Assembly: GCF_001605725.1 (NCBI RefSeq)
Contig: NZ_CP011530.1
Span: 4,836,001 to 4,900,000 of the forward strand
Length of the DNA stretch: 64,000 bases
Reading direction: 5' to 3'
DNA from: Mycobacteroides immunogenum
GTDB taxonomy: Bacteria > Actinomycetota > Actinomycetes > Mycobacteriales > Mycobacteriaceae
Of this stretch, positions 9,224 through 56,512 are shown piece by piece. A program made the translations under genes and the position numbers. Below the pieces are notes generated by a model that worked only from the letters and a program-made list of their open reading frames with translations, did not search any database and was not told the origin of the DNA. Position 1 is the stretch's first letter. The number at the start of each line of letters is the position of its first letter.

Positions 9224-9910
9224 ATGCACCCGCGTTCGGCCCGGCTTGAGTCCGCCCACCTGTACCTCTGCACCGATGCGCGCCGGGAGCGCGGCGACCT
9301 CGCCGAGTTCGTGGACGCTGCCCTGGCCGCAGGGGTGGACATCGTGCAGCTGCGGGATAAGGGATCGGCCGGTGAAAAGCAGTTCGGCCGGCTCGAACCG
9401 ACCGAAGAACTCCAGTACCTGGCGATTCTGGGCGAAGCCGCCGCACGTCATGGCGCACTGTTCGCCGTCAACGACCGCGCCGATATCGCCCGGGCGGCCG
9501 GCGCCGACATCCTGCATTTGGGCCAGGACGACCTACCCCTGGCGGTGGCCAGGGAAATCGTCGGACCGGATGTGCTGATCGGCCGCTCCACGCACGACGC
9601 CGAACAGGCCGCCGCAGCAGCCGGCGATGACCAGATCGATTACTTCTGTTGCGGGCCGTGCTGGCCAACACCCACCAAGCCGGGCCGCACCGCGCCCGGC
9701 CTCGGGTTGGTGCGGGCGGCGGCGGACCTCGGGACCACCAAGCCCTGGTTCGCGATCGGCGGAATCGACCAGGCACGGGTGCCCGAGGTGCTCGAAGCCG
9801 GGGCCTCGCGGATCGTGGTGGTGCGGGCGATCACCGCGGCGGCAGACCCGCGTGAGGCCGCGGCCTCGCTGCGCGACCCGGTGCGCCGAGCGCATAACGC
9901 GCGCGGGTAG
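9224..9910 (+). CDS. thiE: Thiamine phosphate synthase ThiE
   Basis: Joins HMP pyrophosphate and thiazole phosphate to give thiamine phosphate. 228 residues from the ATG at 9224. Conserved TIM-barrel elements are [36 protein letters not shown] and [13 protein letters not shown] 24-residue upstream extension to 9152 would run through the opposite-strand riboswitch and is rejected. It is divergent from thiOSG; the riboswitch faces thiO, so thiE is probably controlled from its own promoter in the 20 bp between them or by a leaderless start. Confidence 0.93.
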
Positions 9911-44032: not shown

Positions 44033-44527
44033 ATGACCCAAGGGATTTCGCGCCGATGGCCCAGGGAATGGGCTGGGCTTGCCGTATCTGTCATTGCGGT
44101 AACCGTCGCCGCCGGAATCGGCAGGGCAACCACGACCAGCACTGCGGAAGGTTATGGCCGTCTGCAACAACCCGGCTGGGCCCCACCGGCCTCACTTTTT
44201 GGACCCATGTGGGCCGTGCTGTACGCGTCAATGGCGGTATCAGCATGGCTGGTATGGCGATCACACCCCGCACGGGAAAATCGGGTACCACTAGCGGTGT
44301 ACGGCGTTCAACTTGTCCTGAACATGGCCTGGACACCACTGTTCTTCGGTCTTGGTTGGCGGGGAACGGCATTCATCGAGATCTTCGTGTTGTGGGCGTT
44401 CATCGCCGCGACTGTGGCACTGTTCTGGCACCAAAGCCGTTGGGCCGCAATACTACTGCTGCCCTACCTGACGTGGACCACATTCGCGGTGGTGCTGAAT
44501 TTCTCGGTGTGGCAGCTGAATAACTAG
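44033..44527 (+). CDS. tspO: TspO/MBR family tryptophan-rich sensory protein
   Basis: 164 residues, five membrane helices. Family motifs: WAPPASLFGPMWAVLYASMA near 51-70, LVLNMAWTPLFFG in the middle, and PYLTWTTFAVVLNFSVWQLN at the end. TspO proteins bind porphyrins and are tied to tetrapyrrole and oxidative stress responses. Start ATG 44033; an in-frame ATG at 43979 lies inside the repeat remnant and is rejected. Its stop codon shares the bases CTAG with the stop of the convergent photolyase gene. Confidence 0.9.
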   Translation: MTQGISRRWPREWAGLAVSVIAVTVAAGIGRATTTSTAEGYGRLQQPGWAPPASLFGPMWAVLYASMAVSAWLVWRSHPARENRVPLAVYGVQLVLNMAWTPLFFGLGWRGTAFIEIFVLWAFIAATVALFWHQSRWAAILLLPYLTWTTFAVVLNFSVWQLNN

Positions 44528-45891
44528 TGATCTTGCCTGGACCGGTAACGGTGCAGTGCGATGTTCCTTTCCTCTGCGTGATCGACGATGGTGGTCGGGT
44601 ATCCGCGCGTATGGCCGTCGGGGTATTTCCAGGGCGTAATAGCCGAGGCCCCGGATAGGTGCCGCAGTTCCGGGATGTACTTGCGGATGTAGTCGCCGTT
44701 GGGGTCGAACTTTTGTGCCTGAGCCGTGGGGTTGAAAACTCGGAAGTACGGGGCCGCGTCGGTGCCCGTTCCCGCGACCCACTGCCAGCCGTGCGTGTTG
44801 GATGCGCTGTCGGCGTCGATGAGGTGGTTCATGAAGTGCCTGGCTCCGTGCGGCCACCAAATATGGAGATCCTTGGTCAAGAAGCTCGCGGTGACCATCC
44901 GAACTCGGTTATGCATCCACCCTTCGGCAAGCAGTTGCCGCATGCCGGCATCAACCAGTGGGTATCCCGTTTCTCCACGTTGCCAGGCCCTGAAGCCCCC
45001 GCCGGGTTCGGCATAGGTCAAATGCGCTAGGGCATCGGTTAAGTCGGTGTGCGCGGAATGCGGCTGGTGAAAAAGCACGTCGGCGTAGAAATCTCGCCAG
45101 GCCAGCTCCGAGATGAACTTGGCGGCGTCTTGGCCTGCGATGGCCGCCAGATCAGCGAGAAGTGTGCGGGGGTGGATCGCCCCAACTTTGAGGTAGGGCG
45201 AGATCCTGGATGTGGCATCCACGTCGGCGCGGTCACGACCAGCGGCGTACCCCGTCAGATCGTGTGCGAGGAAATGTTCCCACCGTGCGCGAGCCGCGCC
45301 CTCGCCCGCGGGAGGCAGAGCGATGCCGCAGCGCTGAGCGAGCCCGGCGAGTGAAGATCGGGCGGGGCTTGATTGTGCGGATGCGGGGGGTTTCGCCCAG
45401 GAAGGGCTGGTTTGCAGCTGGGCGGGGCGGGGCCAGTGGTGCGCGCGCCAGGCGCGTTCGAATGCGGTGAACACCCGATACGTAGACCCGTCTGATTTGG
45501 TGATCCGGCCCGGCGTCACGGCGTAGGGCGAGCCCGTCTCGATCCAGTCCACGCCGATCTTCGCCAGCTCGGCGGATACCGATGTATCCCGGCGCCGGCC
45601 GAAGGGAGTCGTCTCCCGGGCCACATGCACTTCAGTTGCGCCGACACGTTCGGCCAGCTCTACCAGGACCTGTTCCGGTGCACCGGATTTCAGGCAGAGT
45701 CGTCCATCGAGTTGTCGATCGAGGTCAAGGACGTTGGCGGCAAGCCACGCATCCCGCGGACGTGGTGCGCTGCCAAGCAGCTGCGGGTCCAGGATGAACA
45801 CGGCAAGTACATCGCCGCTCTCGGCCGCGGCGCGGAGCGCGGGATTGTCGGCCAACCGCAAGTCGCGGCGGGCCCACCAGATAACACTCAC
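44524..45891 (-). CDS. phr: Deoxyribodipyrimidine photolyase
   Basis: 455-residue FAD enzyme that repairs pyrimidine dimers with light. N-terminal antenna domain (VIWWARRDLRLADNPAL), C-terminal FAD domain with WRDFYADVLFH, FRAWQRGETGYPLVDAGMRQL, TEGWMHNR-type AEGWMHNRVRM and DADSASNTHGWQWVAGTG. Class I type. Last gene of the cfa-SOUL-SDR-phr operon; its start overlaps the SDR stop by 4 bp. Likely under the SigK-type promoter at 48961-48987. Confidence 0.93.
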   Translation of the reverse strand: MSVIWWARRDLRLADNPALRAAAESGDVLAVFILDPQLLGSAPRPRDAWLAANVLDLDRQLDGRLCLKSGAPEQVLVELAERVGATEVHVARETTPFGRRRDTSVSAELAKIGVDWIETGSPYAVTPGRITKSDGSTYRVFTAFERAWRAHHWPRPAQLQTSPSWAKPPASAQSSPARSSLAGLAQRCGIALPPAGEGAARARWEHFLAHDLTGYAAGRDRADVDATSRISPYLKVGAIHPRTLLADLAAIAGQDAAKFISELAWRDFYADVLFHQPHSAHTDLTDALAHLTYAEPGGGFRAWQRGETGYPLVDAGMRQLLAEGWMHNRVRMVTASFLTKDLHIWWPHGARHFMNHLIDADSASNTHGWQWVAGTGTDAAPYFRVFNPTAQAQKFDPNGDYIRKYIPELRHLSGASAITPWKYPDGHTRGYPTTIVDHAEERNIALHRYRSRQDH

Positions 45892-47246
45892 GAGCGGATC
45901 CGACTTCCCAACAGATGACCCAAGGCAGGACCGATGTCCTGAGCCCGGAAGACATGCTGACGATCCAATAGCGTTACGGGAGAAACACGCTGACTCGCCA
46001 TCGCGAGCTCTTCGGCACCCTCTCGGCCAAGTACTAGCGCAGGGCCGAAGGCGGGTACTGGTATGACCGCCGGGCGACGGACGGCCCGGGCCAGTGCCCG
46101 TGTGTAGTCGATGTTGCGAACCACGCCGGGCGCCACGGCGTTAACCGGGCCCGATAGTGAAAGGTCCCACAGGCATCGGTGATAGATGTCTACCAGGTCG
46201 TCAATGCCGATCCATGGCAACCACTGAGTGCCGGAGCCCAGGGGCCCGCCCAGACCGGCCCGGAAAAGCGGAAGCAGCAGCTTGAGCGTTCCGCCGCGGG
46301 GCGACTGAACGATGCCGGTGCGGACGGTGACGGCGCGAGTCCCGGCACCCTCGCCTGCCAACGCCGCCTGCTCCCAACGAGCGACCACATCGGAAAGGAA
46401 GTCCGCCGCCGGCGGGGGTGGGCTTGTCTCGGTGAGCGTTTCGTCGCCTCGGTTCTTCCCGTAGTACCCCACCGCTGACGCGCTGACGAAGGTACTCACA
46501 CCTGCGGACGCGGCGGCTCGGGAAAGGAGGCGCGTGGGCTCGATTCGGCTTGAGGCGATCAGTTCTTTGTGCCGGTGGGTGAAGCGTCCGGCGATGCTGG
46601 CACCCGCCAGATGGATAACGGCATCAACGCCTTCCAACACGGCGGGGTCGGGATTATCTGGCTCCCAATTTCGCTCCGTAGGACTCTTCGGCTCTCCGCG
46701 GACTAGGCGAATCACGCGGTGTCCACCGGTGCTGAGGAACGCGGTAAGTGCGGTGCCCACTAGCCCGGTCGCGCCGGTAACAGCCACCGTCGAGGCGTTC
46801 ATTCCGTGGTCGGTGGCCCTGCGGTGCGCGGCCAGATCACCGCCGAGTTGCCGGTGTCGATATGCCATGAGATCGGCGAGAAGCCGTCCCGGAATGGGAG
46901 TTTCGATCGTGTCGCGCACCCGCGTGCTGCGATCGCCTACGGGCTCGAACTCGTGAATATGCCTCCAGGGCAACACACCACTGACCGCCGAGCGCAGTCC
47001 CGTCGCGACCGCCTCGTCGACGAATCGTCGGCCCGGCAGGAAGGCTGTCTTGTCATGCCGGGCAACCCAGCGAAGACCTCCCGGCAATTCGAGTACGGCG
47101 GTGCCGTCAGACAGCGAATGCGCTTCGGTATTTAGCTCTACCGGCGCCCATGGCGCCGCCAAGCGGCTGAACGCCCCTGGCCTGGAATACCAGGCGAACA
47201 CATCCTCGACGGGTTCGTCGACAATCACCGAATCACTGATGCCCAT
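45888..47246 (-). CDS. SRPBCC domain fused to TIGR01777/YfcH-type SDR epimerase
   Basis: 452 residues from ATG 47246. Residues 1-148 are a START/SRPBCC-like ligand-binding domain (SVIVDEPVEDVFAWYSRPGAF, then LRWVARHDKTAF); residues 152-452 are an extended SDR with nucleotide motif TGATGLVG (157-164), SASAVGYYG and a DUF1731 tail. The reaction is unknown. The fusion suggests a lipophilic substrate handed to the SDR. The frame runs to 47537 but the extra part overlaps the SOUL gene. Confidence 0.83.
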   Translation of the reverse strand: MGISDSVIVDEPVEDVFAWYSRPGAFSRLAAPWAPVELNTEAHSLSDGTAVLELPGGLRWVARHDKTAFLPGRRFVDEAVATGLRSAVSGVLPWRHIHEFEPVGDRSTRVRDTIETPIPGRLLADLMAYRHRQLGGDLAAHRRATDHGMNASTVAVTGATGLVGTALTAFLSTGGHRVIRLVRGEPKSPTERNWEPDNPDPAVLEGVDAVIHLAGASIAGRFTHRHKELIASSRIEPTRLLSRAAASAGVSTFVSASAVGYYGKNRGDETLTETSPPPPAADFLSDVVARWEQAALAGEGAGTRAVTVRTGIVQSPRGGTLKLLLPLFRAGLGGPLGSGTQWLPWIGIDDLVDIYHRCLWDLSLSGPVNAVAPGVVRNIDYTRALARAVRRPAVIPVPAFGPALVLGREGAEELAMASQRVSPVTLLDRQHVFRAQDIGPALGHLLGSRIRS

Positions 47247-47283: not shown

Positions 47284-47940
47284 CTAGGCGCCTCGTGAGG
47301 CATCGTCCACCTGTACGCGAATCGGCACTGCGATCTCATTGCGCCGTGCGCACGAGAGTGTCCATGGTGGGTCGTAGAACCAGGCTTGGGGATCGCCTGA
47401 GGTCTGTATGCCGTTGTTGTGCAGGGTATTGAGCAACTCGTCGGTGCGCCTGGTGACAGCCGCCGCCGATCGGTCGCCGCTGAAGCGCAGCACCGCGAGG
47501 GTCTCGGCGGGCACTTCGGTGAGCCGGATGCTCTCATCGCCGGGGGTAGGCAAGCTTGCCAGTGTCCACTTCGCCGGCATGTAGAAGCGGATTATCGAAC
47601 CGCCAGTAACACTTGGCAATTGGCCCACGGGGGCCGTCATGGCGATGGTGTCGTTTTGCTGCGCCACCGGTGCGGTCATGGCGATCTTGGCCCGCCCGCG
47701 GTTCTTGCCGAATATGTAGCCGGCAAGACGGCGAAAACCCTCGCTGCGAGCACGCTCGTCATCGGCCAAAACGGTGGTTTCTGCCGCGACTCGGCTGCTG
47801 TACTGCCTGATCTGCACCGAAGCAGTCAGTCGCCGTGACGAGTACCGCGGTTCTTCGGTTCCCGAACGGATTCCGACGATGTTGCCTGCCGCTTTGAGCA
47901 GTTCAACCCCCAGGGTCCAGGGCGGCATGATGACACTCAA
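47284..47940 (-). CDS. SOUL-family haem-binding protein
   Basis: About 218 residues. SOUL/HBP features: IRQYSSRVAAETTV (N-terminal strand), FRRLAGYIFGKNRGRAKIAMTAPV (family core with MTAPV twice), and WFYDPPWT near the end. The family binds haem or other tetrapyrroles. A TTG at 47940 has AAAGGAG six bases before it and is my preferred start; ATG at 47928 is possible but too far from that site. It follows the CFA synthase by 22 bp. Confidence 0.8.
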   Translation of the reverse strand: MSVIMPPWTLGVELLKAAGNIVGIRSGTEEPRYSSRRLTASVQIRQYSSRVAAETTVLADDERARSEGFRRLAGYIFGKNRGRAKIAMTAPVAQQNDTIAMTAPVGQLPSVTGGSIIRFYMPAKWTLASLPTPGDESIRLTEVPAETLAVLRFSGDRSAAAVTRRTDELLNTLHNNGIQTSGDPQAWFYDPPWTLSCARRNEIAVPIRVQVDDASRGA

Positions 47941-47962: not shown

Positions 47963-48856
47963 CTACTTCTCGAGATACGGGAGGTGCAGTTTGGGGAGGG
48001 TGAATTGGGCGACGTCGATGTAGCCGATGCGGAAGTAGTTCGCACATCCGGTGAGGTACTTCATGTAACGCTCGTACACAACCTCGTCCTGTATAGCGAT
48101 GGCCTCATCCTTGTGTTCCTCCAGTGCCGCCGCCCACAGGTCCAGAGTCTTGGCGTAATGCGGCTGCAGTTGGTGTACTCGCGTGCAGCTGAAACCCGCC
48201 CGCTCGGCATGCTCTCGCACCATCTCGATGGAGGGTAACCGCCCGCCGGGGAAGATCTCGGTGACCATGAATTTGATGAAACGCGCCAGCTCAAAATTCA
48301 ATGGCAGGCCCTTGGCCACAACCTCGTTGGGATGCAGTCCGGCGATGGTGTGCAGCAGCATCACGCCGTCATCGGGTAGCGCGGCGTAAGCAAACCTGAA
48401 AAAGTCGTCGTAGCGGTCAAAGCCGAAATGTTCGAACGCGCCGATCGACACAATCCGATCGACCTTGCCGTCGAATTCCTCCCACCCGTGCAGCTGGACG
48501 CTCTTCGACCGGGTGCTCCACGATTCCGCCAGAAGCTTCTCGACGTGCGCCTTCTGATTCTTACTGAGAGTCAGACCGATGACGTTGACGTCGTAGTTCT
48601 CCAATGCGCGTTTGATGGTCGCGCCCCAGCCACACCCCACATCCAACAGCGTCATTCCTGGCTCCAACTGAAGCTTGCCCAGCGCCAAGTCAATCTTGGC
48701 CAGCTGCGCCTCCTCGAGGGTCATTTCGTCGCGCTCGAAGTAGGCGCAGCTGTATGTCTGGGTCGGGTCAAGAAAGAGCCGGAAGAAGTCATCCGATAGG
48801 TCGTAATGGGCCTGTACGTCGCCGAAATGTGGGCGCAGGCGCGGTGAGTCTGACAT
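47963..48856 (-). CDS. Cyclopropane-fatty-acyl/mycolic acid synthase family methyltransferase
   Basis: 297 residues, about the size of the mycobacterial MmaA/CmaA/PcaA enzymes. SAM motif LLDVGCGWGAT (70-80), N-terminal HYDLSDDFFRLFLDPTQTYSCAYF, bicarbonate/active-site region GAFEHFGFDRYDDFF, and LQPHYAKTLDLW. It adds a methylene or methyl to a double bond of a phospholipid acyl chain or a mycolate; which is not clear. First gene of the leftward operon, with a 5' leader of about 97 nt from the SigK-type promoter. Start ATG 48856 is preceded by AGGAAAGG. Confidence 0.9.
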   Translation of the reverse strand: MSDSPRLRPHFGDVQAHYDLSDDFFRLFLDPTQTYSCAYFERDEMTLEEAQLAKIDLALGKLQLEPGMTLLDVGCGWGATIKRALENYDVNVIGLTLSKNQKAHVEKLLAESWSTRSKSVQLHGWEEFDGKVDRIVSIGAFEHFGFDRYDDFFRFAYAALPDDGVMLLHTIAGLHPNEVVAKGLPLNFELARFIKFMVTEIFPGGRLPSIEMVREHAERAGFSCTRVHQLQPHYAKTLDLWAAALEEHKDEAIAIQDEVVYERYMKYLTGCANYFRIGYIDVAQFTLPKLHLPYLEK

Positions 48857-48960
48857 CTGGGCGGAACCTTTCCTGGGGCGGGAACGTCTACCTACCGGTC
48901 TTTCTTCTGCGGGGCATGCGAGCGGCCGTATTCGGGCATGTCTGTGCGGCTCTGTTGTCA

Positions 48961-48987
48961 ATTCGGAGCCGAACGTCGTTCGGATGG
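48961..48987 (-). promoter_or_regulatory. SigK-type promoter for the leftward operon
   Basis: On the minus strand, CCATCC (48987-48982), a 15-base spacer and CCGAAT (48966-48961). These hexamers are the ones described for SigK-dependent promoters in M. tuberculosis. It faces the CFA synthase gene at 48856 and is a mirror of the promoter at 49043-49069 with the same spacer. Confidence 0.8.
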
Positions 48988-49042
48988 GTCGGTTGTAACG
49001 AAAGTAGAGCCCGCGCCGGACGCCGTCCCAAAGCGGCAATAC

Positions 49043-49069
49043 CCATCCGCGGGCCGGTTTACTCCGAAT
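49043..49069 (+). promoter_or_regulatory. SigK-type promoter for the sigK-rskA operon
   Basis: CCATCC (49043-49048), 15-base spacer, CCGAAT (49064-49069). The -10 ends 7 bases before the GTG at 49077, so transcription probably starts on the start codon and the message is leaderless. This implies autoregulation, since sigK is the fifth gene of this operon. Confidence 0.82.
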
Positions 49070-49076
49070 AAGGGAT

Positions 49077-50393
49077 GTGAGTACAAAATTTGGTCCGGCC
49101 GGGCCACGGACCATCGCCGTCATCGGGAGTGGCGTGGCCGGATTGACCGCGGCACACGTGCTCGCCGCCCACGACCGGGTTACGTTGTACGAGGCCGACG
49201 GGCGTTTCGGCGGCCATGCTCATACCCAGTTCGTTGATGACGGCCACGGTGAGCCGACGGCGGTCGACACCGCGTTCTTGGTCCATAACGACCGGACTTA
49301 CCCCACGCTATGCCAACTGTTCAACGACCTTGATGTCCATACCACGAACACCGATATGTCGATGTCGGTACGCGATGACCGCATCGGCTTGGAGTACGCC
49401 GGCGCACGGGGTCTGCGCGGCCTCTTCGCCTCACCCGCTGCCGCGAGCCCCCGCTATCTGCGGATGTTGGCGGAAATCAAGCGGTTTCACCGCCGCGCCC
49501 GCCGACTGCTCGCCGCCCCGGACGCCGACGCCCTAAGCCTCGGAGATTTTGTTCGACAGTTGGGCTTTTCGCAGTTCTTCGTCGACCACTTCCTGACACC
49601 GCTGGTGGCCGCCGTGTGGTCCTGTCCGCCGGGGCAGGCCATGGCGTATCCGGCGCAGTACTTGTTCAGGTTCCTTGACCATCACGGCATGCTGTCGGTG
49701 TTTGGGTCACCACAGTGGAAAACAGTCACAGGGGGTTCGCGCACGTATGTCGATGCTGTGGTGGATGGCCTGCATGAGGCGTTCACCGATGCGCCGGTCG
49801 TCCAGATCAGACGGGCCCGCGAGGGCGTAACCGTAACGGCTGCGGGGCACGCGCCGCGCGTGTTCGATGCCGCCGTCATTGCGACGCATCCCGATCAGGC
49901 ACTCGGTCTGCTGGCGCAGCCGACCGAGGATGAACGGGCAGTGCTGGGAGCCATTGATTACGTGAGTAATTCCGCGCAACTGCACACCGATGAGTCCCTG
50001 TTGCCGCGCCATGCGCGTGCCCGCGCGTCGTGGAATTACCTGAGCAGGGGCGGCTCCCAGGATGTCGTGGTGACGTACGACATCACCCGGTTGATGAGCT
50101 TGTCTGGACCACGAAGATTTCTGGTCACCCTGGGCGGTGAGCACCTGGTGCGCACCGGTGCGGTGCTTACCGAAATGACCTACCGTCACCCGGTCTACAC
50201 ATCGCAATCTGTTGCTGCCCAACGCAGACTGCCAAGTCTCAACGACGGCCGCATCGCGTTTGCAGGTGCATACCATGGGTGGGGGTTCCACGAGGACGGT
50301 GCCGCCTCCGGCCTACGTGCAGCACAAGCGCTGGGCCGGGGCTGGCCGGCCAGTACCGCCGGTCAGCGCGAGCACCGGGTTGCGGCACTATGA
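49077..50393 (+). CDS. FAD/NAD(P)-binding amine-oxidase-like protein (Rv0449c-like)
   Basis: 438 residues. FAD-binding GxGxxG at TIAVIGSGVAGLTAAHVL with the acidic end in TLYEADGRFGGHA; the C-terminal flavin segment is RIAFAGAYHGWGFHEDGAASGLRAA. The family includes predicted fatty-acid dehydrogenases that act with CFA-type methyltransferases. Starts at GTG 49077, likely leaderless. First gene of the rightward operon; its stop overlaps the DUF1365 start. Same order as Rv0449c-Rv0444c of M. tuberculosis. Confidence 0.9.
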   Translation: MSTKFGPAGPRTIAVIGSGVAGLTAAHVLAAHDRVTLYEADGRFGGHAHTQFVDDGHGEPTAVDTAFLVHNDRTYPTLCQLFNDLDVHTTNTDMSMSVRDDRIGLEYAGARGLRGLFASPAAASPRYLRMLAEIKRFHRRARRLLAAPDADALSLGDFVRQLGFSQFFVDHFLTPLVAAVWSCPPGQAMAYPAQYLFRFLDHHGMLSVFGSPQWKTVTGGSRTYVDAVVDGLHEAFTDAPVVQIRRAREGVTVTAAGHAPRVFDAAVIATHPDQALGLLAQPTEDERAVLGAIDYVSNSAQLHTDESLLPRHARARASWNYLSRGGSQDVVVTYDITRLMSLSGPRRFLVTLGGEHLVRTGAVLTEMTYRHPVYTSQSVAAQRRLPSLNDGRIAFAGAYHGWGFHEDGAASGLRAAQALGRGWPASTAGQREHRVAAL

Positions 50394-51127
50394 ACTCGGC
50401 GACGGCGGTTCCCTGCCTCTACCGCACCCGAATCATCCATGTGCGGCGTTCGCCGGTGGCCCACCGATTCACCTATCGCGGCTACTACTGGTACATCGAC
50501 ATCGACAAGCCGCCTCGCCTGCCCCATGGCCTGGGCGCCTTCGCCAGTTTCCAAGCACGGGACCATTTCCGGGGAGATTCCGACGACACACTGCGCCAAC
50601 GTGTGGATCAATTCCTCGCCGGGCACGGGGTCGACCTGGGCGGGGGTACGGTCACCGCGCTGCTGCAGGCACGGGTGTTGGGTCACGTCTTCAACCCACT
50701 CAGCCTGTACTGGTGCCATGATCGCCACGGCGATCTCGTCCACATCATTGCCGAGGTCCATAACACCTATGGCGGACGGCATGCATATCTACTGCCTCCG
50801 ACCACAAATTCCACAGTGGACAAACAGCTTTACGTATCACCGTTTAACGGCTACGACGGACAATATCGAGTTCGAGCTACTCGCCCCGGTGACACATTAA
50901 ACATCAGTATCTGGTTACAGCGAGGCGGACATCTGCCGTTCTTCGCCGCAGTGCGCGGTATTCGGCGCCGGGCCGGTGTCAGTGAACTGTTGTGGTTACA
51001 GGCCACCGCTCCCCTGGCCCCACTAATGGGTGCGCTGGCCATCCGCACGGAAGGGATCAGACTGTGGCTGAAAGGGCTACCAGTGGTGGAGCGCACACCT
51101 CCGCACGAGAGGGAGAGGATAGCGTGA
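50390..51127 (+). CDS. DUF1365 protein (Rv0448c-like)
   Basis: 245 residues from ATG 50390 (MNSATAVPCLYRTRI). DUF1365 signatures: HVRRSPVAHRFTYRGYYWYIDID, ARVLGHVFNPLSLYWCHD, EVHNTYGGRHAYLL and KQLYVSPFNGYDGQYR. Function not established; always found with the FAD oxidoreductase and CFA synthase, so a role in modified fatty-acid synthesis is likely. Overlaps neighbours by 4 bp at both ends. Confidence 0.9.
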   Translation: MNSATAVPCLYRTRIIHVRRSPVAHRFTYRGYYWYIDIDKPPRLPHGLGAFASFQARDHFRGDSDDTLRQRVDQFLAGHGVDLGGGTVTALLQARVLGHVFNPLSLYWCHDRHGDLVHIIAEVHNTYGGRHAYLLPPTTNSTVDKQLYVSPFNGYDGQYRVRATRPGDTLNISIWLQRGGHLPFFAAVRGIRRRAGVSELLWLQATAPLAPLMGALAIRTEGIRLWLKGLPVVERTPPHERERIA

Positions 51128-52398
51128 ACGGTCATCTCGACAGCGCCGCCCCCGATGCGCGTGATATCAGATCGCATCTCCAACTGGATATCGCGCCGGT
51201 TCCTTCCGGGCCGCTGGCGGCGGCACGTGCGATCGTCGCCGACAAGCTGCTGCGCCGTGCGGCCGCGCGGCTCCCGGTGCGGGTGGTGTACCCGGACGGG
51301 TCCGTTGTGGGAGCGGCAGATACGTCCCTGCCCACCATGAGAGTTCGGCGGCCGGCGGCACTGGCACGACGCCTGGGGCGATCCGGCTTGATCGGATTCG
51401 GCGAGGCCTACATGGACGGAGACTGGGACTGCGATGATCTTGCGGGCTTCCTCACCCCATGGGCAGCATCGATGGGGGTGTTGATTCCCCCTGTCTTGCA
51501 ACGGTTCCGGCATCTCGCCGTGCCGCGCGTCCCGCAAGCTCAGCGCAACGAACCACCGCAGGCCCAGCGCAATGTCGCGCATCACTATGACCTGTCGAAT
51601 GACTTTTTCGCGCTGTTCCTCGACGATACGATGACGTATTCGTGCGCACTGTTCGACCACATTCCGTGCACAGCAGGGGGACTCGCGGATGCCCAGCGAC
51701 GGAAGATCGACCGCTTACTGGACCACGCACAGGTAGGCCTCGGCACCCGAGTACTCGAGATCGGTACGGGCTGGGGACAATTGTGCGTATCGGCCGCTGC
51801 TCGCGGAGCACACGTGCGGTCAGTCACATTGTCTAGCGAGCAACAGAAACTGGCTCTACAGCGGGTAGAAGCCGCCGGGCTATCCGACCGAGTACAGGTC
51901 GAGCTGTGCGATTATCGAGACATACAAGGCCAATACGACGCCATCGTCTCGGTAGAGATGATCGAAGCAGTTGGATTCGATTTCTGGACAACGTATTTCC
52001 AGACCATTGACGCGTTACTTAAGCCCGGCGGCCGATTCGCCCTTCAAACCATCACCATGCCCCACGAGCGAATGCTGGCCAGCCGCAGTACTCACACCTG
52101 GATACAGAAGTACATTTTTCCCGGCGGATTGGTTCCTTCGGTGCGGGCAATCGCCGAAACAACCTCCGATACGACTCATCTGCGCACCGTCGAGACAATA
52201 TCCCTGCGGCCCCACTATGCCGAAACACTGCGGTTGTGGAGTCGGCAATTCGCGGCGCAGCGTGAAAGCGTGTCGGCGCTGGGCTTCGATGACGCGTTCT
52301 ATCGCATGTGGCAGCTGTACCTGGCCTACTCGGAAGCCGGGTTCAGCTCCGGTTATCTCGATGTCCACCAATGGATTTTCCAGCGAGGCCAACAATGA
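51124..52398 (+). CDS. ufaA1: CFA-synthase family methyltransferase UfaA1
   Basis: 424 residues, with the N-terminal domain seen in CFA synthases (about 1-130, FGEAYMDGDWDCDDL) and a SAM domain (VLEIGTGWGQLCVSAA, then VEMIEAVGFDFWTTYF). NVAHHYDLSNDFFALFLDDTMTYSCALF is the conserved motif before it. M. tuberculosis UfaA1 (Rv0447c) occupies the same place and has been linked to methylation of oleate-type chains. GTG start at 51124 overlaps the preceding stop. Codons look slightly AT-richer than the surroundings. Confidence 0.91.
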   Translation: MNGHLDSAAPDARDIRSHLQLDIAPVPSGPLAAARAIVADKLLRRAAARLPVRVVYPDGSVVGAADTSLPTMRVRRPAALARRLGRSGLIGFGEAYMDGDWDCDDLAGFLTPWAASMGVLIPPVLQRFRHLAVPRVPQAQRNEPPQAQRNVAHHYDLSNDFFALFLDDTMTYSCALFDHIPCTAGGLADAQRRKIDRLLDHAQVGLGTRVLEIGTGWGQLCVSAAARGAHVRSVTLSSEQQKLALQRVEAAGLSDRVQVELCDYRDIQGQYDAIVSVEMIEAVGFDFWTTYFQTIDALLKPGGRFALQTITMPHERMLASRSTHTWIQKYIFPGGLVPSVRAIAETTSDTTHLRTVETISLRPHYAETLRLWSRQFAAQRESVSALGFDDAFYRMWQLYLAYSEAGFSSGYLDVHQWIFQRGQQ

Positions 52399-53180
52399 GC
52401 TTTCTGATGGTGATGGCGTGCACGCTGGGTGCCGTGGCAGTGGTGCACAGCGTGACTTTCCTGATCGGTTACCGCATCGGTCGCTACAACGTGGTCGACG
52501 TCGCATGGGGTCTCGGGTTCATCGCAGTGGCGGCGGTGTGCGCCGCGATCGGTGTCGGTGACCGGCAGCGCCGAGTTCTGCTACTCGTGCTCATCGCGAT
52601 ATGGGCAGTCCGGCTGTCCTGGCACATGTTGGTGAAATCGGCCGGGAAAGGCGAAGACCCGCGGTACCACGACCTGCTCAGCGGAGACTTCTCGGTGCCG
52701 CACGTATTGCGCAAGATTTTCGTCGTGCAGGCCGCTGCCACGTGGCTGGTATCCATGCCCATTCAACGCTCAGCTGTCGAAGGGCCGACCCCTGAGTCGT
52801 TGCGCCCCGTGGTGGCCGTCGGCATCGGGTTATGGACGCTTGGAATGCTTTTCGAAGCGGTGGGTGATTTTCAGCTGCGCCGTTTCAAGCAGGATCCAGC
52901 CAACAAGGGCAAGATCATGGAGCAGGGACTGTGGGCCTGGACTCGGCATCCGAACTATTTTGGCGATGCCTGCGTGTGGTGGGGGTTGTGGTTGGTCACC
53001 ATCACCGGTTGGCAATCGTTGGCGACGATGCCGTACCCGGTGCTGATGACCTACTTCCTGGTCTACGCCACTGGTGGCCGCCGTACCGAAAAGGCAATGG
53101 CCGGGCGGCCAGGATTCACCGACTATCAGCGGCGAGTCTCGTTCTTCTTCCCTCGCCCCCCTAAGCGGGAATCTTCATGA
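52395..53180 (+). CDS. DUF1295 membrane protein (steroid-reductase-like, Rv0446c-like)
   Basis: 261 residues, six to seven membrane helices. DUF1295 motifs: YNVVDVAWGLGF, GKGEDPRYHDL, QGLWAWTRHPNYFGDACVWWGLW and FTDYQRRVSFFFP; the RHPNYFG box is that of membrane reductases and isoprenylcysteine-type methyltransferases. Likely reduces or modifies a lipid at the membrane. ATG 52395 overlaps ufaA1; its stop overlaps sigK. Confidence 0.9.
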   Translation: MSFLMVMACTLGAVAVVHSVTFLIGYRIGRYNVVDVAWGLGFIAVAAVCAAIGVGDRQRRVLLLVLIAIWAVRLSWHMLVKSAGKGEDPRYHDLLSGDFSVPHVLRKIFVVQAAATWLVSMPIQRSAVEGPTPESLRPVVAVGIGLWTLGMLFEAVGDFQLRRFKQDPANKGKIMEQGLWAWTRHPNYFGDACVWWGLWLVTITGWQSLATMPYPVLMTYFLVYATGGRRTEKAMAGRPGFTDYQRRVSFFFPRPPKRESS

Positions 53181-53758
53181 ACGTTCTCCGAGATGCGTTT
53201 AGGCTCACGGGCGTGACCGGCGACCTGGATACTCTGTTGCGCAATGTCGCCGACCGCGATACCGAAGCGTTCGCCGCCCTTTACGACCACACCCGCTCAC
53301 GCGTGTACGGGCTGGTTTTGCGTGTGTTACGGGACCCCGGCTATAGCGAGGAGACGACGCAAGAGATCTACTTGCAGATCTGGCGTTCTGCCCAAAGCTA
53401 TGATCCGACAGCCGGATCGCCCCTGGCCTGGATCATGACCTTGGCGCATCGCCGCGCGATAGACCGCGTGCGATCAGAGCAATCTGCGGCCGACCGCGAG
53501 TCACGCTATGGCGCCGCCACTGTCGAGCGAGCGTCCGACAGGGTCACTGAATCGGTGATCGCCAACGACGAGCAGCGACAAGTCACCGAATGCCTCCAAA
53601 CGCTTACGGATACGCAACGTGAATGCCTGCATCTTGCCTACTACGACGGTTTGACTTATAGCCAAGTCTCGCAACGGCTTGCCGCCAATCTGGCAACCAT
53701 CAAATCTCGAATGCGCGACGCGATCAAGGCGCTGCGCCGATGCCTGGGGACACCATGA
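53177..53758 (+). CDS. sigK: ECF sigma factor SigK
   Basis: 193 residues, group-4 sigma factor: region 2 at about 20-90 (FAALYDHTRSRVYGLVLRVL, then EETTQEIYLQIWRSA) and region 4 at about 135-190 (LTDTQRECLHLAYYDGLTYSQVSQRL). Coupled to DUF1295 upstream and rskA downstream by ATGA overlaps. In M. tuberculosis SigK is held by RskA and drives mpt70/mpt83 and its own operon. Matched promoters here are at 48961 and 49043. Confidence 0.95.
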   Translation: MNVLRDAFRLTGVTGDLDTLLRNVADRDTEAFAALYDHTRSRVYGLVLRVLRDPGYSEETTQEIYLQIWRSAQSYDPTAGSPLAWIMTLAHRRAIDRVRSEQSAADRESRYGAATVERASDRVTESVIANDEQRQVTECLQTLTDTQRECLHLAYYDGLTYSQVSQRLAANLATIKSRMRDAIKALRRCLGTP

Positions 53759-54462
53759 CCGAACCCAATGAGCTCATCACCGCCGCCACCCCGTACGCGC
53801 TGCACGCGTTGTCCGACGACGAGCGAGACCGGATCGACCAGTGGTTGTCAGCCGGCGCGACCGAACAAACTTCCTCCTTTGCCCAGGAAGTGCGTCAGAC
53901 GCGAGAGACCATGGCGGCCTTGGCGGCAAGCACCGCAACCGAGCCCCCCGCCCGGCTCCGCGCACGGCTACTCAAGATTGTGGTGCGGGACGCGCAAAGA
54001 GACATCAGAACAACGGGTATCACCCGCTGGAGGGCGCCTCTGGTGGCCGTCGCGGCCGCCACCGCTATCGGGCTGGCTGCCGCCGGAATCGGCGCCATCA
54101 TGTGGCCTCCGACTCCGACGGCCCAGCAAGTCTTCACCGCAACCGATGTCCGGACCGTCACCGGCGCCATTCCCACCGGCGGTACCGCGACCGTGGTCTA
54201 CTCGAGACAGAAGAACACTGCGGTACTGGTGATGAACAACGTCGCACCGCCGCAGCCCGGCACCGTTTACCAAATGTGGCTGATTGGCGACCGCGGACCA
54301 CAGTCAGCGGGGACAATGGACGCTCAGGCCGTCGCGCCCTCCACCACGGCGGTCATATCCCGCCTCAACGGCTCCACCGCGTTGGCATTCACTGTCGAGA
54401 ACGGCCAAGGTTCGACAACGCCCACCGGCACGCTCATCGCACAACTGCCGCTGAACTATTAG
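53755..54462 (+). CDS. rskA: Anti-sigma-K factor RskA
   Basis: 235 residues. N-terminal cytoplasmic sigma-binding region (NELITAATPYALHALSDDERDR), one membrane helix at about 94-116, and an external RskA domain ending in conserved strands (YQMWLIGDRGPQSAGTMDAQ). Cleavage of the external part by site-2-protease cascades releases SigK in M. tuberculosis. ATG 53755 overlaps the sigK stop. The stop lies 15 bp before the right direct repeat. Confidence 0.93.
   Translation: MTEPNELITAATPYALHALSDDERDRIDQWLSAGATEQTSSFAQEVRQTRETMAALAASTATEPPARLRARLLKIVVRDAQRDIRTTGITRWRAPLVAVAAATAIGLAAAGIGAIMWPPTPTAQQVFTATDVRTVTGAIPTGGTATVVYSRQKNTAVLVMNNVAPPQPGTVYQMWLIGDRGPQSAGTMDAQAVAPSTTAVISRLNGSTALAFTVENGQGSTTPTGTLIAQLPLNY

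Positions 54463-54479: not shown

Positions 54480-56512
<2,033 letters not shown>

Follow-up and report, generated by a model that had tools for sequence, protein, structure and literature searches.

The closest described relative of the locus examined here is the SigK-RskA system of Mycobacterium tuberculosis, a pair of extracytoplasmic function (ECF) sigma factor (group ECF19) and anti-sigma factor whose regulon comprises the sigK operon together with mpt83, dipZ and mpt70. Passages of PMC7509140 describe M. tuberculosis sigK as autoregulated from a promoter before Rv0449c and SigK as redox-sensitive via two cysteines, and state that the trigger of the SigK cascade is still unknown. A second point of comparison is the RpoE-ChrR singlet-oxygen regulon of Rhodobacter and Pseudomonas syringae; according to parts of PMC5507510, the conserved regulon holds phrB, cfaS, an SDR and a flavin oxidoreductase, and the P. 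syringae system answers singlet oxygen. For the RpoE of R. capsulatus, which singlet oxygen induces, sections of PMC7074977 find greater similarity to M. tuberculosis SigK (34%) than to its counterpart in R. sphaeroides (24%). Here we compare with both systems a 220-bp intergenic gap in a 64,000-nucleotide stretch of the Mycobacteroides immunogenum genome (the window; positions 4,836,001-4,900,000 of a single contig of 5,573,781 bases), from which a cyclopropane mycolic acid synthase family gene (CFA) and the FAD-dependent oxidoreductase gene heading the sigK-rskA operon diverge. M. immunogenum is a member of the M. chelonae-abscessus complex.

We consider it likely that this gap is a single two-sided SigK node driving both operons, perhaps against photo-oxidative damage. 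The arrangement is a variant of the known SigK regulon with, so far, a mixed link to light stress. A literature search for SigK with photolyase and SOUL returned nothing, and related searches gave, among the papers listed, no description of the arrangement in titles, abstract openings or passages. The original prediction, which had proposed mirror-image SigK promoters with identical spacers serving two divergent operons, one of them leaderless, is sound except for the spacers; what it missed is that the arrangement is found, among the mycobacteria checked, only in this complex, that the fasciclin targets are absent there, and that back-to-back SigK-type promoters with other cargo occur elsewhere.

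Opposed SigK-type promoters in the gap

Each strand of the gap carries an exact CCATCC-N15-CCGAAT motif (Table 1), the two hexamers of which we take to be the -35 and -10 SigK promoter elements of M. tuberculosis; a text search of the literature for both hexamers gave, among the papers listed, only ones unrelated by title. The spacers are identical in length (15 nt each) but not in sequence, agreeing at 7 of 15 positions and having the stretch ACCCATCCG in common. No third CCATCC-N13-19-CCGAAT occurs in the window besides these two, and 100 dinucleotide shuffles of the window yielded a mean of 0.11 matches, with none reaching 2. At the nucleotide composition of the window, an exact N15 site is expected about 0.7 times per genome and 0.00003 times per 220-bp gap; the genome holds four, of which two lie in this gap. 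The genome-wide search for CCATCC-N14-18-CCGAAT that had been proposed as a check recovered both gap sites among seven exact matches, against none for the reversed pattern, and the other five (two with N15, three with other spacers) all fall within open frames. With up to one mismatch allowed, 44 N15 sites were found genome-wide, four of them exact, compared with three for the reversed pattern. All 40 one-mismatch sites are spanned by a frame of at least 60 aa, and 38 of the 40 by a likely coding frame (third-position GC of at least 0.64), the spanning frames being poor only at L158 and L169; such frames are a guide rather than proof, because promoters can sit inside frames. At this stringency, the two promoters of the gap are the only convincing SigK sites in the genome; weaker or intragenic ones would escape. 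L158 and L169 are the sole one-mismatch sites of this genome that may be intergenic, and the former (L158:1501-1527; G000:C1:3906712-3906738) lies 5' of a helix-turn-helix gene; despite the poor spanning frames, neither was counted as a further SigK target, as the -10 is altered in both.

In a search for exact motif pairs with 15-bp spacers and 30-60 bp separating the two sites, seven of 297 genomes of the genus gave a match. A thioesterase that adjoins rskA (at least 88% identity; next best 60%) marks eight chelonae-complex genomes in this sample, namely those seven and G147. Eight species with the sigK locus were examined, made up of the seven genomes (including G242 and G190, whose loci are L045 and L046) and Mycobacteroides sp. 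LB1 (L047). Both hexamers of the leftward site are exact in all eight, and the rightward promoter is likewise kept throughout, with one change in the -35 of LB1. When the eight species are aligned, 12 of 12 columns of the leftward hexamers and 11 of 12 of the rightward ones are invariant; elsewhere in the gap 52 of 196 are. For the leftward hexamers versus these remaining columns, Fisher's test gives p 3e-7, only a guide as the sequences are related. The predicted 5' leader (23 of 97 columns invariant) and the stretch between the promoters are poorly conserved, and the leftward site is retained in LB1 although much of the gap has diverged there. These patterns indicate that the paired motif is not a product of chance. 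Two other elements of the gap were considered and rejected: the palindrome CCGAACGTCGTTCGG (CCGAACG-T-CGTTCGG, a perfect inverted repeat at 48969-48983 overlapping the leftward -35) as an operator, which is not kept in other species of the complex, and a 15-codon upstream frame in the CFA leader (48892-48939, minus strand) as a leader peptide, which is not kept in relatives.

The genome encodes a single SigK homologue at E 1e-20, closely similar to M. tuberculosis SigK over both DNA-binding regions. Together with the conservation in eight species, this supports the assignment of SigK promoters to both arms, and we infer with strong confidence that both operons depend on SigK. Cys139 and Cys189 of the window protein align with cysteines of 4nqw, and by our reading of the alignment would correspond to the published redox cysteines C133 and C183.

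For the rightward arm, the proposed leaderless start at the GTG is supported by a wider comparison. The same promoter precedes the same gene, with zero or one mismatch and the spacer fixed at 15, in all 33 mycobacterial loci (L045-L077) that head the best 80 of 580 confirmed places; one of them, L050, is a metagenome-assembled genome labelled only Actinomycetota. When spacers of 14-17 are allowed, the best site is at 15 in 32 of the 33, the site of L062 lying outside the searched range. The first in-frame ATG or GTG located 3-14 nt past CCGAAT is at 7 nt in 27 loci and at 8 nt in six, and the start codon is GTG in 32 and ATG in one. The exact string motif-N7-GTG occurs in 116 of 294 genomes, compared with none for the reversed pattern (matches unassigned to genes), and the 7-nt spacing is also seen before an alpha/beta hydrolase gene in Rhodococcus and relatives, a molybdo-oxidoreductase gene in Streptomyces and the FAD gene of a Tsukamurella plasmid. 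Two Mycolicibacter loci were left out of the 33-locus count, L079 having no site within two mismatches and L080 a site with two; CCGAAT-N7-ATG is kept in both. On the leftward arm, the -10 lies 104 nt from the CFA start in the window and 73-113 nt from it in L045-L047, so that a leader is apparent on this arm but not on the rightward one. Overall, the spacing strongly suggests a leaderless rightward mRNA.

The close packing of the leftward genes (gaps of 34, 37 and -4 nt) makes a single transcript likely; tspO is convergent with phr and lies outside this operon. Its third gene had been read as SRPBCC-SDR, of which the TIGR01777 SDR stands, whereas Pfam calls no SRPBCC in the window protein; an N-terminal SRPBCC-like domain may be inferred from a Polyketide_cyc match in a Rhodococcus relative.

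Table 1. Predicted promoters, transcript features and genes of the two divergent arms (window coordinates).
Feature	Position	Strand	Details
SigK-type promoter of CFA-SOUL-SDR-phr operon	48961..48987	-	-35 CCATCC 48982-48987, N15, -10 CCGAAT 48961-48966; expected start ~48953-48955; exact motif
SigK-type promoter of FAD-DUF1365-ufaA-DUF1295-sigK-rskA operon	49043..49069	+	-35 CCATCC 49043-49048, N15, -10 CCGAAT 49064-49069; exact motif
GTG start codon	49077..49079	+	7 nt 3' of CCGAAT; predicted at or adjoining transcript 5' end
Predicted 5' leader of CFA operon	48857..48953	-	~97 nt, AGGAAAGG before ATG
Cyclopropane mycolic acid synthase family methyltransferase (CFA)	47963..48856	-	Pfam CMAS, NCBIfam NF040660 above cut-off; best solved-structure match cyclopropane synthase 1, 1kp9
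SOUL heme-binding family protein	47284..47928	-	Pfam PF04832; 34-nt gap to CFA stop
TIGR01777-family SDR	45888..47246	-	Profile match; 37-nt gap to SOUL stop
DNA photolyase (phr)	44524..45891	-	Pfam PF00875 and PF03441, PDB photolyases; overlaps SDR stop by 4 nt
FAD-dependent amine-oxidoreductase-like protein	49077..50393	+	Pfam; first gene of sigK operon
DUF1365 protein	50387..51127	+	Pfam PF07103
Cyclopropane fatty acid synthase family protein (ufaA-like)	51124..52398	+	Pfam CMAS
DUF1295 protein	52395..53180	+	Pfam PF06966
sigK, ECF sigma factor	53177..53758	+	NCBIfam PRK09646 SigK above cut-off; PDB 4nqw SigK E 1.2e-77
rskA, anti-sigma factor	53740..54462	+	RskA_N (PF22618) and RskA_C (PF10099) above cut-off

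Comparison with related loci

Compared with M. tuberculosis, the window has homologous sigma and anti-sigma factors and the same first operon, with the gene order of most mycobacterial loci examined, which is presumably also that of M. tuberculosis itself. It differs in having the CFA-SOUL-SDR-phr operon on the opposite strand and in the lack of a fasciclin gene (MPT70/83; PF02469 at E 1e-5) in all eight complex genomes; four of 14 control genomes were positive. A leftward N15 site within 400 bp was found in only three of the 33 mycobacterial loci (L045, L046 and L047, all from the chelonae complex), L075 having a weaker N14 site, and among the mycobacteria checked the CFA-SOUL-SDR-phr arm is found only in this complex.

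Outside mycobacteria, 45 loci (L078, L081-L124) were compared, and seven of them, in Rhodococcus and Streptomyces, have back-to-back SigK-type sites (up to one mismatch each). In the remaining 38, sites are absent, confined to one arm, scattered or weaker, and several show no sigK in the stretch examined. Like the window, these pairs serve the FAD operon with one arm in five of seven cases, three via a hydrolase gene in front, but their opposite arm differs: fasciclin faces hydrolase-FAD in L078, L081 and L086, lipocalin faces FAD in L082 and fasciclin in L084 and L088, and a molybdo-oxidoreductase faces FAD in L091. Because opposed sites occur there with other genes, the architecture would be older than the window version or have evolved beside it, with cargo that differs between groups.

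Genes of the leftward operon are also linked to SigK independently of it. Three Rhodococcus loci have a SigK site ahead of an SDR gene related to that of the window, at 33 nt in L078 (one mismatch), 34 nt in L081 (exact) and 32 nt in L086 (exact), and in each of them a photolyase gene sits just upstream; in L082 and L090, photolyase and SDR genes are close by, but the SDR has no such site. In the Streptomyces loci L091, L106 and L120, a photolyase gene directly follows genes for SigK- and RskA-like proteins (49-50% and 29-32% identical to those of the window) on the same strand, and in L120 a one-mismatch SigK site precedes the sigma gene. Together with the operon geometry, these links support the predicted extension of the SigK regulon to CFA, SOUL, the SDR and photolyase. 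The same three Streptomyces runs converge on an opposite-strand FAD-DUF1365-cyclopropane synthase operon. In Tsukamurella (L188), an SDR relative (68% identical) is divergent from the sigK-rskA operon; a SigK site on this SDR arm was sought and rejected, the site being on the FAD arm only.

The likeness to RpoE-ChrR extends to the pairing of an ECF sigma and anti-sigma factor with FAD oxidoreductase, DUF1365 and cyclopropane synthase genes and to a photolyase in the regulon. Its target families FAD oxidoreductase, cyclopropane synthase, SDR and photolyase are all present here, the SDR in another subfamily (no match to the Azospirillum SDR), and the second-best solved-structure match of SigK is the RpoE structure 2q1z, which we take to be from R. 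sphaeroides. A relative of the FAD protein occurs in 123 plasmid records, of which six were examined, four of them proteobacterial. FAD-DUF1365-CFA genes are divergent from sigma-ChrR in Azospirillum lipoferum. In Shinella sumterensis, the gene that diverges from sigma-ChrR is that for the FAD protein, and chrR is followed on its own strand by DUF1295, CFA and DUF1365; the window FAD protein is 44% and 43% identical to its respective counterparts in these loci. The FAD-DUF1365-CFA core faces a MerR-type regulator in Azoarcus, and in Paracoccus FAD-DUF1365 has neither beside it. Identities to the window proteins are 43-44% (FAD), 30-32% (DUF1365), 28-40% (CFA), 31% (DUF1295) and 26-30% (sigma). 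The proteobacterial gaps L184, L185 and L187 contain no SigK-type site within two mismatches, as expected for another promoter type.

The phrB-tspO-mmpL2 locus of M. kansasii resembles the window in having a photolyase gene with tspO nearby, and the light response of that species also includes two SigK-type genes; in passages of PMC9861118 this locus is not placed under SigK, and in the window tspO is not part of the phr operon. In Mycolicibacter acidiphilus (L079:2500-10001), the FAD-sigK operon has genes for photolyase, an MmpL transporter, SOUL and an SDR as neighbors, an arrangement reminiscent of the M. kansasii locus; a molybdo-oxidoreductase assignment for one gene of L079 was rejected, as Pfam identifies it as the MmpL transporter.

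Losses and rearrangements within the complex

The G050 locus keeps CFA and the leftward promoter but no longer has SOUL, SDR or photolyase, and the G050 genome has no photolyase match at E 1e-20 and no SOUL match at 1e-10. LB1 keeps CFA and SOUL, with SDR and photolyase not in the locus stretch examined. Since the distal genes are lost in both while CFA and the promoter stay, CFA is the constant partner of the leftward promoter. The same complex includes G147, in which SigK, SOUL and photolyase gave no match at the limits used, nor FAD at 1e-120; passages of PMC6418233 report no sigK in M. abscessus ATCC 19977. The whole set can therefore be missing together, though one or two events may explain this.

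The thioesterase (54480-55307 in the window) is separated from the sigK locus by about 0.9 Mb in G092 and G088, and in G050 by about 2 Mb, so either the locus or its neighbor has moved. The position of tspO also varies: it adjoins rskA in LB1 (L047:15390-15896) and directly adjoins CFA in G050 (L156, reverse complement 9380-9898), which marks the neighborhood as restless.

A proposed two-sided SigK node and alternative explanations

In the mechanism that we favor, SigK released from RskA would bring RNA polymerase to a pair of divergent promoters that share their hexamers and a spacer length of 15 bp. Rightward, FAD-DUF1365-ufaA-DUF1295-sigK-rskA would be transcribed as a leaderless mRNA beginning at or next to the GTG, feeding back on sigK and rskA, and leftward, CFA synthase-SOUL-SDR-photolyase would be transcribed with a leader of about 97 nt. 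The joint output, with two cyclopropane-synthase-type methyltransferases, a flavin oxidoreductase, a heme/porphyrin binder and a photolyase, would fit the shielding of membrane lipids and DNA from photo-oxidative damage. Parts of PMC9861118 report that light raised mpk83 6-fold and mpk70 3-fold in M. kansasii, and a passage of PMC8965627 that RskA fell upon UV exposure in Nesterenkonia.

Several observations weigh against one part or another of this reading. The eight species are close relatives, and conservation within one complex represents limited time. SOUL as a general SigK target was rejected, since 25 SOUL-bearing stretches of about 3.6 kb each from outside the complex (L020-L044, drawn from 197 genomes with a SOUL match) yielded two weak N14 sites but no N15 site at zero or one mismatch. 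The window RskA has no cupin domain, unlike the ChrR proteins of Azospirillum and Shinella, and only two of the four proteobacterial FAD loci examined adjoin RpoE-ChrR. According to passages of PMC9861118, the 14 light-responsive genes of M. kansasii exclude dipZ, which has a putative SigK site, and the whole sigK operon; this counts against a light signal because a light-activated, autoregulated SigK would raise its own operon. The M. kansasii photolyase locus was up 27-32-fold in the same account, far above mpk83 and mpk70, and was not attributed to SigK. Finally, passages of PMC7509140 report that M. tuberculosis SigK comes free of RskA in vitro upon reduction, not oxidation. In our judgment, the failure of dipZ and the sigK operon to respond to light and the photolyase of Streptomyces roughly offset one another, moving the photo-oxidative reading from an even call to marginally below one, and it is with this slight reserve that we suggest light or singlet oxygen as the natural stress of the regulon. 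More tentatively, and with the balance tilting somewhat further against it, SigK-RskA could be the actinobacterial counterpart of the RpoE-ChrR response, its old job being protection from light-made oxidants through lipid cyclopropanation or related methylation, porphyrin/heme handling and photorepair; the hub would have been re-cargoed on its opposite arm, and the MPT70/83 antigens would be cargo of a former light-stress sigma factor.

Among the alternatives, the most serious, which we hold to be a real if lesser possibility, is that the SigK regulon is a response to envelope or redox stress in which light plays no part, the photolyase being a passenger of an operon fusion. Several genes here are of lipid-modifying families, and the redox-sensitive cysteines of M. 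tuberculosis SigK and the absence of the sigK operon from the M. kansasii light list, as given in the passages of PMC7509140 and PMC9861118 cited above, would fit such a role; a photolyase, however, requires light to work, Rhodococcus and Streptomyces again have one next to SigK-type genes or sites, and two alphaproteobacteria show a link between the FAD gene core and RpoE-ChrR. We find it unlikely that SigK drives CFA, and perhaps SOUL, while SDR and photolyase are under their own promoter or a light regulator with only minor SigK read-through. The losses in G050 and LB1 that leave CFA as the constant target agree with this division, as does the disproportionate light response of the M. kansasii photolyase locus (passages of PMC9861118), yet the intergenic distances on the leftward arm would hardly accommodate separate promoters (no search for internal ones was made), and SDR genes with their own SigK sites in Rhodococcus and the photolyase behind sigK-rskA in Streptomyces also speak against it.

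It seems very improbable that a different ECF sigma factor with a similar preference recognizes the leftward site. In its favor, passages of PMC6418233 count 17 to 19 sigma factors in chelonae-complex species and two sigK orthologues in franklinii-type strains; against this, each of the seven genomes with any SigK homologue has just one at E 1e-20, including G242, taken here as M. franklinii, and the two promoters have hexamers, spacer length and flank in common. Hardly credible, finally, is a chance match kept through short divergence: the relatedness of the eight species would allow it, but not the full invariance of the leftward hexamers amid a gap where about every fourth column is fixed, nor their survival in the diverged gap of LB1. 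On balance, a SigK node facing both operons remains our preferred explanation.

Implications

A SigK regulon with photolyase, SOUL and a mycolate cyclopropane synthase, in a complex without MPT70/83, offers a concrete and cheaply approached hypothesis for the signal, namely light or singlet oxygen. The locus would also make a clean test system, in which a single 220-bp fragment holds both promoters, just one sigma factor is involved and M. smegmatis, which lacks the sigK-rskA pair according to a passage of PMC7509140, could serve as laboratory host. More broadly, the 7-nt spacing offers an easy way to pick out candidate leaderless SigK genes throughout the actinobacteria. In Mycolicibacterium sphagni (L061:13423-16180), a separate unit of sigK-rskA and a cyclopropane synthase has one-mismatch SigK sites 7 nt before the starts of both the sigK frame and the synthase.

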